From a virus, in IMG/VR virus record IMGVR_UViG_3300037488_000226, positions 1-23,452 of that record: 23,452 bases of DNA. One strand, 5' to 3'. Of the stretch, positions 4,333 through 20,560 are shown piece after piece. The notes under the pieces are model-generated. The model saw nothing but the letters and a program-made list of their open reading frames with translations, ran no database searches and had not been told where the DNA came from. Position 1 is the first letter of the stretch, and every line of letters starts with the position of its first letter. A program made the translations under genes and the position numbers.

Positions 4333-5244
4333 ATGGCTGTTAACCTTAGTGCCATCAAAGACCTTCTCCTGCCGGGACTTCGCGGCATTGAAGGCAAGTA
4401 CGAACAGATTCCGTCCCAGTACGACAAGATTTTCACCAAGCACGAAAGCCGCATGGCTCTGGAGCGCACTGCTGAAATGCGCTATCTGGGTCTTGCCCAG
4501 CTTAAGACCGAAGGCGGACAGACCGCTTTCGACAACGGCGCTGGTGAGCGTTATGTCTACAATCAGGAACACACGGAAATCGCCCTTGGCTATGCGATCA
4601 CTCGCAAGGCCATTGATGACAACCTGTACAAGACACAGTTCCAGCCGTCTAACCTTGGCCTGATTGAGTCCTTCAATCAGACGAAGGAAATCTACGGCGC
4701 GAACGTCATCAACACTTCGACAACGTACAATGCGTCTGTCGGCGGTGACGGTGTCGCTCTTGTCGCCACCAATCACCCGATTGATGGCGGCACGGTTGCC
4801 AACCGTCCTGCAACTGACGTTGAACTGAACGAAGCGACCCTGCTTGCGGGCATGATCGCCATCCGTACAGCTTTCAAGGATCAGGCCGGTCTTAAGGTGT
4901 TCGCTCGCGCTCGCAAGTTGCTGGTTCCCCCGCAGCTTGAGCCGGTCGCGATCCGCCTCACAAAGTCTGAACTGCGCCCCGGTACAGCGGATAACGATGT
5001 CAATGCGATCATCAGCACTTCGGGCGGTCTGCCTGAAGGCTACATGACCAACGACTTCCTCACATCCGCCACAGCTTGGTTCCTTCTCACCAACATCGAC
5101 GGCCTCTCCTACATGGAGCGCGTCAAGTTTGAGACGGACATGCAGGTTGACTTTGTAACGGACAATTTGCTGGTCAAGGGGTATGAAAGATACTCCTTCG
5201 GCTATTATAATTTCCGGAGCATCTGGGGCAGCCTTCCTACCTAA
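4333..5244 (+). CDS. Probable major capsid protein (HK97-fold type)
   Basis: A 303-residue protein. The N-terminal region MAVNLSAIKDLLLPGLRGIEG is followed by a charged helix. The middle region has a QTAFDNGAGERYVYNQEHTE segment and an ALGYAITRKAIDD helix, as in P-domain and E-loop regions of HK97-fold capsids. Later comes ALVATNHPIDGG, then LKVFARARKLLVPPQLEP, a pattern common in capsid proteins that resemble Mu gpT. The C terminus YERYSFGYYNFRSIWGSLPT fits a final A-domain strand. Position after scaffold and decoration genes and length near 300 residues agree. The start ATG 4333 lies 9 bases after AAGGAG. The stop codon is inside a terminator-like palindrome. Confidence 0.75.
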   Translation: MAVNLSAIKDLLLPGLRGIEGKYEQIPSQYDKIFTKHESRMALERTAEMRYLGLAQLKTEGGQTAFDNGAGERYVYNQEHTEIALGYAITRKAIDDNLYKTQFQPSNLGLIESFNQTKEIYGANVINTSTTYNASVGGDGVALVATNHPIDGGTVANRPATDVELNEATLLAGMIAIRTAFKDQAGLKVFARARKLLVPPQLEPVAIRLTKSELRPGTADNDVNAIISTSGGLPEGYMTNDFLTSATAWFLLTNIDGLSYMERVKFETDMQVDFVTDNLLVKGYERYSFGYYNFRSIWGSLPT

Positions 5245-5262: not shown

Positions 5263-5296
5263 GAGGTTTTACACAGACACCTCTTGAAAAGATAAG

Positions 5297-5342
5297 TCCT
5301 CCGGTGTATCGGTTAAAAGCCAAACATCGGAGGATTTTTTTT
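5297..5342 (+). terminator. Terminator hairpin that also contains the ribosome site of the next gene
   Basis: An 11-bp stem with one G-U pair (5297-5307 with 5324-5334) and a 16-base loop is followed by eight T (5335-5342). The 3' arm contains GGAGGA (5329-5334), the best possible Shine-Dalgarno sequence for ATG 5343, and the T run is exactly the spacer. Transcripts would mostly end here, and readthrough transcripts would have the ribosome site paired, so the endonuclease would be kept low from the capsid transcript. Confidence 0.8.
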
Positions 5343-6017
5343 ATGCAAGGCAAAGCAAAGATACCTGATTTTACTCATCAGGATGTTTTAGACGCGCTTG
5401 AATATAATCCCGCCACTGGGGTGTTTAAGTGGAAAATCCGCCCTAGTAAAAACATTGCTCCCGGTTCTCAAGCTGGCGGCAACTTAAAGGGCAACGGATA
5501 TCGCTACATAAGCTTTAGGGGTCATGAGCTTACTGAGGGTAGGCTGGCATGGTTTTACGTGACTGGCGAATGGCCTGAGCGCCGCATTCGTTATAAAAAT
5601 GGAAAACCAGATGATAGCCGCTTTGAGAACATGACTTTGTTCAATGGCATTGGCGGTGAATACAACCATAAAACACGCGAAGGGCGTAATCAGTATCTTC
5701 GCCAGTATAGGAAAGCTTCTCCAGAACTTGAGAAGGCGCGTGCATTGCGGGCTGATTTTGGTATTTCCTTAGAGAAATACAATCAAATGTTAGAAGCTCA
5801 AATCGGACTGTGCGCGATTTGCAAACAACCAGAAACCCACAAAAGAGACGGAAAAGTTAAGGCCCTTGCCGTTGACCACCATCATGGAACTGGGAAAATT
5901 CGTGGCCTTCTTTGCTCTGATTGCAACACCGGAATTGGCAAGCTAAAGGACGATGTTAACGTACTAAGCAACGCCATTGACTACTTGCGCAAGCACAACA
6001 TTGATGATACCAATTAG
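5343..6017 (+). CDS. HNH endonuclease: degenerate HNH_3-like N-terminal half fused to an Endonuclease VII-like domain
   Basis: 224 residues from ATG 5343, chosen because GGAGGA lies 8 bases upstream; an in-frame GTG at 5304 lies inside the terminator. The C-terminal domain (about 135-220) matches phage Endonuclease VII. It has zinc cysteines CAIC (157, 160) and CSDC (191, 194), VDHHHGTGKIRGLL with Asp178/His179 as catalytic candidates, and Asn195. The N-terminal half (about 10-100) follows the HNH_3 plan (YNPATGVFKWK, RLAWFYVTGEWP, ENM). However, the usual HRLAW is GRLAW and the usual DHINGD is RYKNGK, so its catalytic histidines are gone. Such enzymes cut double-stranded or branched DNA, and free-standing copies behave as mobile homing genes. 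It separates the capsid gene from the next structural gene and is more AT-rich than its neighbours. Confidence 0.85.
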   Translation: MQGKAKIPDFTHQDVLDALEYNPATGVFKWKIRPSKNIAPGSQAGGNLKGNGYRYISFRGHELTEGRLAWFYVTGEWPERRIRYKNGKPDDSRFENMTLFNGIGGEYNHKTREGRNQYLRQYRKASPELEKARALRADFGISLEKYNQMLEAQIGLCAICKQPETHKRDGKVKALAVDHHHGTGKIRGLLCSDCNTGIGKLKDDVNVLSNAIDYLRKHNIDDTN

Positions 6018-6041
6018 GAGGCGGCTAAAACCGTCTCCTTT
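6016..6041 (+). terminator. Hairpin with short T tail after the endonuclease gene
   Basis: aggaggcgg (6016-6024) and ccgtctcct (6031-6039) form a 9-bp stem with one G-U pair and loop ctaaaa, followed by only two further T. The stop codon TAG (6015-6017) overlaps the 5' arm. Likely terminator, but the tail is short. Confidence 0.55.
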
Positions 6042-6050
6042 CTGGTGTAA

Positions 6051-6101
6051 CTTGCTGTACCGACCGTACCAGCGGACTTTGCACAGACGGTACAGCGCAA
6101 G
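6051..6101 (+). other. Long imperfect hairpin in the leader of the 6117 gene
   Basis: cttgctgtaccg (6051-6062) pairs with cggtacag (6088-6095) plus caag (6098-6101), giving 12 pairs with a 2-base bulge around a 25-base loop. It ends 3 bases before the ribosome site aaggagg. The loop contains a further gaccgtacc segment that could pair alternatively with ggtac, allowing two structures. This is a leader RNA element of unknown role. Confidence 0.5.
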
Positions 6102-6116
6102 TGCAAGGAGGTTCCT

Positions 6117-6572
6117 GTGGGAACTACCACCTTTTCGGGGCCGATCAAGGCAGGCCCCATTCAGAACACCAGTGGCACGACCCTTGGCCGGGATGTGAAG
6201 AACACCGGTTTTGTTGTCATGTCTCAGGTTGTCGCGATCACTCAGGCGGGTACTGCAACAGCCCTTGGGACGCGAATTGTCCTTCCGGTAAACAGCCACA
6301 TCCTGAACATCCAGTTGCTTGCCACTGTCGCATGGACTGGTGCCGCCACAACTCTTAGCGTTGGAACTAGCGCAACCTCCACGGAACTTGTTTCTGCTGG
6401 TGCTGGTGGCGCGATTGGTCTGTCCGCGCTGACACCCGGAACGGATGCAACACGCACCGCGAACTGGGATGACACAGGGACAGCGGACAAGCGCATTTTT
6501 GTCCTTTCCGCAAACACTGGCTCTGGTGTTGGCACCCTGACGGTGCGCTACATTCAGGCTCACGATTCGTAA
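6117..6572 (+). CDS. Small structural-type phage protein
   Basis: 151 residues from GTG 6117, supported by aaggagg (6105-6111) with a 5-base spacer; no ATG fits better. It is Thr/Ala/Gly/Val-rich and looks all-beta, with alternating short strands (VVMSQVVAITQ, TRIVLPVNSHILNIQLLATVAW, TLTVRYIQAHDS). There is no signal peptide, membrane helix or cysteine. The TTFSGPIKAGPIQNTSGTTLG start resembles small capsid-associated proteins found after the capsid gene in environmental phages, from memory only. It would have followed the capsid gene directly before the endonuclease gene was inserted. Virion protein of unknown position is the safest description. Confidence 0.6.
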   Translation: MGTTTFSGPIKAGPIQNTSGTTLGRDVKNTGFVVMSQVVAITQAGTATALGTRIVLPVNSHILNIQLLATVAWTGAATTLSVGTSATSTELVSAGAGGAIGLSALTPGTDATRTANWDDTGTADKRIFVLSANTGSGVGTLTVRYIQAHDS

Positions 6573-19220: not shown

Positions 19221-19934
19221 ATGGCTGGTTTGACTTACGCTACTTATAAAACAGCACTGGCTACGCTTTCGGTTGTTCCTGAAACTGACCCGAATTGGCT
19301 GGCTGTACTTCCTGACGCGATTGATTACGCCGAACTCCGCATCTACCGTGACCTTGATCTTCTTTCGACCGTCCAGACCCTGTCAACATTCGCCACGACC
19401 GCCAATGCCTCAAAGGTCCAGTTGACGGCGGGAACCTTCGTCACGCTCCAGAATGTTAACGTCATCTCCCCGGCTGGAACCACGGTCCCGGACAGCGGCA
19501 CGCGGAACCCGGTCCTTCCTGTCTCCAAGGAATACATCCAGTATTCTTGGCCCAGTTCCACCAACGCTGGCATCCCGAAATACTTTGCGATGATTGATGA
19601 GCGCACATTCTCCTTGGGACCGTGGCCTGACGCCGCCTACACCCTTGAGATCGTCGGAACCTATCGTCCGCCGACCCTGTCATCCGTAGATACTACTACG
19701 TTTATTTCCCAGTATCTGCCTGACCTGTTCCTGATGGCGTCCATGATCTTCGTCAGCGGATACCAGCGCAACTTTGGCCGCCAGAGCGATGACCCAGCAA
19801 TGGCTCAGTCTTATGAGAGCCAGTACCAAGCCCTCCTGCGCGGCGCGACTGTTGAGGAATATAGAAAAAAATTCCAAGCCTCTGGATGGACATCCCTGTC
19901 TCCATCACCTGTTGCCACACCGGGGAGGGGTTAG
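19221..19934 (+). CDS. P22 gp4-like adaptor (second, divergent copy)
   Basis: A 237-residue protein. An N-terminal helical region (NWLAVLPDAIDYAELRIYRD, about 25-44) is followed by a beta segment (LSTFATTANASKVQLTAGTF) and a Pro-containing part. Then comes EYIQYSWPSSTNAGIPKYFA, TFSLGPWPDAAYTLEIVGTYR and a C-terminal helix. The GIP-x-YF, then LGPWPD then GTYR order parallels GFP-x-VF, VWPVPD and TYYR in the 11232 protein, so both fit a gp4-type head-completion fold. The end (about 200-237) is helical then disordered. The ribosome site gaggg lies upstream. The stop TAG shares its G with the GTG of the endonuclease gene. Confidence 0.65.
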   Translation: MAGLTYATYKTALATLSVVPETDPNWLAVLPDAIDYAELRIYRDLDLLSTVQTLSTFATTANASKVQLTAGTFVTLQNVNVISPAGTTVPDSGTRNPVLPVSKEYIQYSWPSSTNAGIPKYFAMIDERTFSLGPWPDAAYTLEIVGTYRPPTLSSVDTTTFISQYLPDLFLMASMIFVSGYQRNFGRQSDDPAMAQSYESQYQALLRGATVEEYRKKFQASGWTSLSPSPVATPGRG

Positions 19935-20560
19935 TGTATTACATTTATGAACACTGGCGGCCTGATCGTGATGAACCTTTTTATGTTGGGAAGGGGCGTG
20001 GATATCGCGCAAATTTAATGGCGCGTAGAAACCCCCACCATACCGCCATTCAAAAAAAGCTTCATCGTCTTGGTATGGCAGTAGAAGTGCGAATTATTTT
20101 TTCAAATTTAACTGAAGAAGAAGCTTACCAGATAGAAATTGAACGGATTGCTATGTGGCAAGCCGCTGGAATTGATTTAGCTAATAAAACTATAGGTGGA
20201 GAAGGCGTACCGGGACTTGTTTTCTCCAAGGAACATAGAGAAAAAATTGGAAATACTTGGCGCGGCAAAAAAAGACCGCCAATGTCAGAAGAACAAAAAA
20301 GAAAAATATCCCTTTCTAAAAAGGGGCAAAAAACGCGGCTTGGAGCAAAGCTTTCAGCCGAAACAAAAGAGAAAATTGCTGCATCAAGGCGGGGAAAATC
20401 AAGTTGGGCCAAAGGCATCCCAAAGTCGCCTGAGGTAAGAGAGAAAATTTCAAAAGCCGTTTCCGCCTCAATCCGTGGTGTTAACAATCCATTTTGGGGC
20501 AAAAAACATACAGAAGAAACGCGCTTAAAAATATCAATCGCCAAAAAAGAAGGGGTATAG
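19934..20560 (+). CDS. GIY-YIG homing endonuclease with NUMOD3 repeats
   Basis: 208 residues from GTG 19934. An in-frame ATG at 19886 lies inside the adaptor gene and would add 16 unlikely residues. The nuclease domain starts at once: YYIYEHW then FYVGKG (GIY and YIG elements), Arg22 in GRGYRA, Glu in EEEAYQIEIERI and NKTIGGEG. The rest carries NUMOD3-type DNA-binding repeats (FSKEHREKIG, MSEEQKRKIS, LSAETKEKIA, NPFWGKKHTEETRLKIS). GIY-YIG enzymes of this kind nick or cut a target site so that their own gene is copied into relatives. A purine-rich ggggagggg ribosome site precedes it. It is strongly AT/A-rich compared with its neighbours, a sign of transfer. The next gene starts one base after its stop. 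Confidence 0.9.
   Translation: MYYIYEHWRPDRDEPFYVGKGRGYRANLMARRNPHHTAIQKKLHRLGMAVEVRIIFSNLTEEEAYQIEIERIAMWQAAGIDLANKTIGGEGVPGLVFSKEHREKIGNTWRGKKRPPMSEEQKRKISLSKKGQKTRLGAKLSAETKEKIAASRRGKSSWAKGIPKSPEVREKISKAVSASIRGVNNPFWGKKHTEETRLKISIAKKEGV

Follow-up and report, generated by a model that had tools for sequence, protein, structure and literature searches.

We identified, directly behind the capsid gene of a phage, an RNA hairpin that probably serves to lock translation of a mobile endonuclease gene, with a promoter built into the hairpin as the key. The sequence analyzed, here called the window, spans the 23,452 bases of a virus record that is possibly a fragment. In the mechanism that we propose, RNA coming from the capsid gene would contain both arms of the hairpin and fold, hiding the ribosome site of the endonuclease. 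A host-type (sigma-70) promoter, whose -10 box forms the top of the 5' arm, would start RNA within the loop, and this RNA, devoid of the 5' arm, would be translated. The endonuclease would in this way be uncoupled from the late, abundant transcription of the capsid gene and expressed from a promoter of its own, which is probably early and of modest strength. The genes and the hairpin parts are the following:

4333..5244, + strand: major capsid (head) protein gene; match to phrog_371 major head protein (E 5e-11), 86.8% identical to the annotated major capsid protein of MW202675
5294..5307, + strand: 5' arm of the hairpin, AAGTCCTCCGGTGT, with the anti-Shine-Dalgarno sequence CCTCC at 5298-5302; from fold and covariation
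5324..5337, + strand: 3' arm of the hairpin, holding the ribosome site GGAGGA at 5329-5334
5335..5342, + strand: T8 run, the U tract of a terminator-like site and the spacer between ribosome site and start; found only in the window and one relative, L084
5343..6017, + strand: endonuclease gene, 224 aa, with a phrog_99 (HNH endonuclease-like) region at the N-terminus and an Endonuclease VII domain at the C-terminus

The hairpin begins 50 bases past the capsid stop codon. Its computed fold has 14 pairs (5294-5307 with 5324-5337), of which 11 form a GC-rich core from T5297-A5334 to T5307-A5324, the stem being extended from the core through A/G-U pairs that reach into the T run. The minimum free energy of -25.0 kcal/mol compares with -10.4 +/- 2.6 in dinucleotide shuffles (z -5.7; none of 200 as good). 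An earlier note on this DNA had described an 11-bp stem with the GGAGGA site in its 3' arm and an eight-T tail acting as the spacer between site and start, and the fold returned the same 11 pairs, placed the site inside the 3' arm and found the T run to fill exactly the gap between GGAGGA and the ATG at 5343-5345. A simple consensus scan of the window listed neither the hairpin, probably because its loop exceeds the limit of 8 set in the scan, nor the embedded promoter, because only 8 of its 12 positions match. No Rfam family was found for the hairpin, the sub-threshold matches being due to chance.

The gene behind the hairpin matches PF02945 at residues 135-217 of 224 (E 9e-25) and, among PHROGs, phrog_99 (E 2e-21) and phrog_2914 (E 3e-31). 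The catalytic and zinc residues C157xxC160, D178-H179-x-H181, R187, C191xxC194 and N195 are invariant in 14 relatives; the Endonuclease VII motif, with its DHHRN residues conserved, lies at the C-terminus. These matches place the gene in a homing-capable family, in keeping with the homing type assigned to it before, and the enzyme may itself be active in homing. Aligned relatives share M-[KQ]-G-K from the ATG at 5343, which identifies this codon as the true start; a longer frame starting from GTG at 5304 was rejected, as conservation in the relatives begins only at the ATG. According to the accessible part of its published account (PMC6083498), the characterized homing enzyme F-CphI of cyanophage S-PM2 is likewise free-standing and shares the C-terminal Endonuclease VII motif (CX2C, DHxH, R, N, CX2C), but works with a psbA intron, whereas the window enzyme sits behind a capsid gene and has an extra N-terminal HNH_3/phrog_99-like region. 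That part of the account describes no comparable control of expression. The window contains a second endonuclease-like gene, of the homing-endonuclease/NUMOD3 type (PF07460, phrog_314), at 19886-20560. It is wedged between two virion genes and overlaps the end of the upstream frame; a GTG close to 19935, where that frame stops, may serve as its start, and no hairpin lock was seen there.

For comparison, we took approximately 80 relatives of the capsid gene and approximately 80 of the endonuclease gene from viral contigs. Almost all close relatives of the endonuclease lie directly behind the same capsid gene, and the 51 distinct occupied sites are of three kinds: in 38 a hairpin precedes the start codon, 11 are of stop-start type, lacking a hairpin and having the start codon at most 17 bases from the capsid stop, and 2 (L035 and L072) differ from both. 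The lock is therefore not obligatory. Endonuclease VII-type genes located elsewhere in viral contigs had a lock in only 1 of 15 cases with a recognizable ribosome site (L220), indicating that the lock goes with the capsid-adjacent site and not with the enzyme family.

Within the hairpins, the conserved part of the element is the predicted translational lock. In an alignment of 19 relatives, 91.9% of the cells of a 13-pair stem were paired, in comparison with 39-53% in controls with the alignment slid; 10 of the 13 pairs, and 41 cells, had changed on both sides (5.4 and 12.4 in shuffles), and none of 500 shuffles reached this. To count divergent forms, the hairpins were grouped into 25 clusters at 75% identity, not all of which are independent origins. 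G-U pairs outnumbered A-C pairs by 24 to 6 in the stem alignment and by 35 to 9 over the 25 clusters, and this approximately fourfold excess suggests that the stem acts as RNA and not as a DNA palindrome. It bears directly on the alternative that the palindrome is an operator for autorepression, bound as DNA by the endonuclease or by another protein, with the RNA fold secondary. There is a precedent in I-TevI, which binds an operator overlapping its own promoter (PMC2988022), and the palindrome here overlaps a promoter as well; such binding would be compatible with the lock as an added layer. The excess of G-U pairs is nevertheless not predicted by DNA symmetry, and the base of the stem drifts freely by compensatory change, leaving the operator as a quite unlikely primary function.

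On RNA initiated upstream, the ribosome site is paired in a stable hairpin. The computed cost of opening it is approximately 18 kcal/mol in the window, in agreement with the prior claim that read-through RNA hides the site, and has a median of 12.9 kcal/mol over the 25 clusters. With RNA starting from the embedded promoter, the median cost is 1.8 kcal/mol, and the drop exceeds 3 kcal/mol in 24 of the 25 clusters. The fold model thus predicts that translation of the endonuclease would be repressed on the long RNA. The release depends on a promoter with these parts:

5284..5289, + strand: -35-like hexamer TTGAAA, conserved in position as TTGACA-like in relatives
5307..5312, + strand: -10-like hexamer TATCGG, topping the 5' arm; of the three columns that are invariant among the 19 aligned sequences, two are its T and A
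5318..5319, + strand: predicted transcription start in the loop, 6-7 bases past the -10 hexamer

A start at 5318-5319 would remove 21 of the 22 pairs to the ribosome-site side. By itself, the window promoter (TTGAAA-17-TATCGG) is a weak match, agreeing at 8 of 12 positions with a shuffle P of approximately 0.1; the promoter cannot be judged from the window alone and becomes significant only through the relatives, among which L104 has a stronger promoter. The relatives have a TTGACA-like hexamer 15-18 bases before a TATnnT-like box that tops the 5' arm. The best promoter scores, found without constraint on position, summed to 207 over the 25 clusters against 147 +/- 9.6 in dinucleotide shuffles, giving a z of 6.3 that overstates the independence of the data because the clusters share ancestry. 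When the -10 box was fixed from the hairpin, the mean -35 match was 4.2 of 6 at spacings of 15-18 and 1.8-2.8 elsewhere, with the TTGACA-like peak at the right spacing seen over 23 divergent hairpins; this profile comes from the second of two anchor rules, in which the -10 box is placed starting from the 5' arm, and replaced a first rule that picked TA dinucleotides in the loop and gave a weaker peak. From sequence comparison, a putative sigma-70-type promoter inside the 5' arm of the hairpin, yielding RNA without that arm, is thus conserved across divergent relatives. The earlier note had seen no clear separate promoter for the endonuclease, a view that the relatives overturn. Some observations go the other way: the third invariant column, a T five bases past the A of the -10 box, falls one base past the canonical last -10 position and counts against a promoter, L089, L110 and L001 have poor matches, and three stop-start control regions also score 8-9. 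A promoter-like ATGAAA-17-TATAAT is also found at 5183-5211, within the 3' end of the capsid gene; RNA from it would carry the full lock, and the match may be due to chance, as TATAAT is here coding sequence for YYN.

The weakness of the window match by itself and the joint presence of T run and lock fit the model of the earlier note, in which the hairpin is terminator and lock without a working promoter and the endonuclease is made only from rare read-through. Under that model, one would not expect promoter hexamers to hold their position across many divergent relatives, nor the invariant columns to be confined to T and A in the -10 box and the T five bases on. The two lock-free relatives speak against it too: L035 and L072 have a GC-rich hairpin past the capsid stop and then, before the endonuclease, near-consensus sigma-70 promoters (TTGACA-17-TATATT and TTGACA-16-TATAAT). 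Calling their GC-rich hairpins terminators is a guess, since the scores are not positive. We regard expression by read-through alone as unlikely and favor the lock with an embedded promoter.

In the window phage, the hairpin has the appearance of a good terminator too: as in intrinsic (Rho-independent) terminators, a U tract comes immediately after the GC-rich stem. Terminator strength was expressed as the d score, calculated with its formula and read against its zero threshold. The window scored +21.0 and L084 +15.5, and the remaining 22 of the 24 scored hairpins had -29 or lower (-29 to -68). Only these two of the 51 occupied sites have the T run, and they share the loop-side sequence CCAAACATCGGAGG, making a single origin of the T-run form likely. 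In their lineage, a T run would have been gained between ribosome site and start, turning the hairpin into a terminator as well, so that RNA from upstream would be blocked twice and promoter-born RNA, without the 5' arm, would escape both. The idea of one element being both terminator and lock may consequently hold for this phage but is not supported as the design of the element, and the double block claimed for the endonuclease would apply to upstream transcripts and not to RNA from the embedded promoter. There is perhaps an even chance that a single 5' arm of approximately 14 bases does three jobs, as the start of the -10 box in DNA and as half of the terminator and half of the lock in RNA. 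With this triple role, the choice of promoter would switch termination and translation together with no protein factor.

The high score, the T8 directly 3' of the stem and the position 50 bases past the capsid stop could also mean that the hairpin is merely the terminator of the capsid gene, which the endonuclease start happens to follow. The relatives make this very unlikely, since they keep the hairpin without the T run and with the strongly negative scores given above. A comparison of relatives with and without the endonuclease, as the earlier note had suggested, furthermore showed that empty relatives carry a different GC-rich hairpin, often in a terminator approximately 7-15 bases past the capsid stop and with a positive score in about one-third. 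The window and L084 have a comparable GC-rich hairpin 3' of the endonuclease:

6017..6038, + strand: terminator-like hairpin 3' of the endonuclease, GGAGGCGGCTAAAACCGTCTCC then TTTCT, score -9; occupies the position that the capsid terminator has in empty relatives

These positions indicate that the cassette was inserted between the capsid stop and the capsid terminator and that the ancestral terminator of the capsid gene was a hairpin other than the lock. Gain and loss of the cassette are apparent among three close relatives: L065 has the complete endonuclease, L064 a truncated one and L075 none, while their last 300 capsid bases are 99.3% (L064) and 95.7% (L075) identical to those of L065. 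Right after the capsid stop, L064 retains the lock hairpin together with the initial endonuclease codons (ATGAAAGGTAGAG), the remainder being deleted, which is not what a plain capsid terminator would predict. Among named phages, a nucleotide search found one capsid relative only, MW202675, and it has no endonuclease behind the capsid gene.

Hairpins hiding the ribosome site are known for I-TevI, I-TevII, I-TevIII and segB of phage T4 and mobE of phage Aeh1, the RNA from their own promoters being without the 5' arm (PMC2988022). As in I-TevI and Aeh1 mobE, long RNA from upstream is predicted to form a stable hairpin whose 3' arm holds the endonuclease ribosome site, and RNA from the predicted promoter would be unable to fold in this way. 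The element thus appears to be a lock of the same kind, new in its phage group, which is unrelated to T4, its capsid-adjacent site and its endonuclease family: the site lies between a capsid gene and the next gene, unlike in the T4 and Aeh1 cases, and the enzyme is of Endonuclease VII type, being neither GIY-YIG nor classical HNH. The promoter looks like host sigma-70, and that of I-TevI is a T4 late promoter, so the timing would be reversed, with the own promoter early and the lock acting on the late RNA of the capsid gene. The window lineage further adds the terminator U tract. Terminators and UAAUG-type coupling also limit free-standing endonucleases in T4, where mobE and segF have internal terminators and nrdA and mobE overlap by stop and start (PMC2988022), and the terminator-like, lock and stop-start versions found at one site in our relatives match these ways. 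The T4 mobE and segF terminators are inside the coding region and apart from any ribosome-site hairpin, whereas that of the window is the same hairpin; in the searchable literature, we found no single hairpin described as both terminator and lock. Hairpin control of homing endonucleases has so far been known from T4-like phages, mostly as single cases. The many divergent occupied and empty alleles at one site in environmental phages allow the rules to be read from evolution, and these appear to be that the enzyme is kept apart from the late capsid transcript by a lock, a terminator-like hairpin or a stop-start overlap and that it has a host-type promoter. This suggests a general constraint on mobile endonucleases entering strong operons, and the element offers a minimal two-layer switch.

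A second conserved RNA element precedes the gene 3' of the endonuclease, at 6042-6117 of the window, and is present also in L003, L034, L046, L085, L127 and others. Its interleaved helices, P1 (6042-6046/6068-6072), P2 (6055-6062/6088-6095) and P3 (6079-6084/6101-6106), make a double pseudoknot that ends at a ribosome site and has the near-invariant core GACCG..CC.AGCGGAC..TGCACAGAC. Rfam has no family for it, with sub-threshold matches due to chance, and the double pseudoknot is undescribed so far; it is possibly a translational regulator of unknown kind. Covariation is strong in P2, where all 8 pairs show several pair types in 29 sequences, and a scan found the core pattern 79 times, in 78 cases downstream of the same capsid gene.
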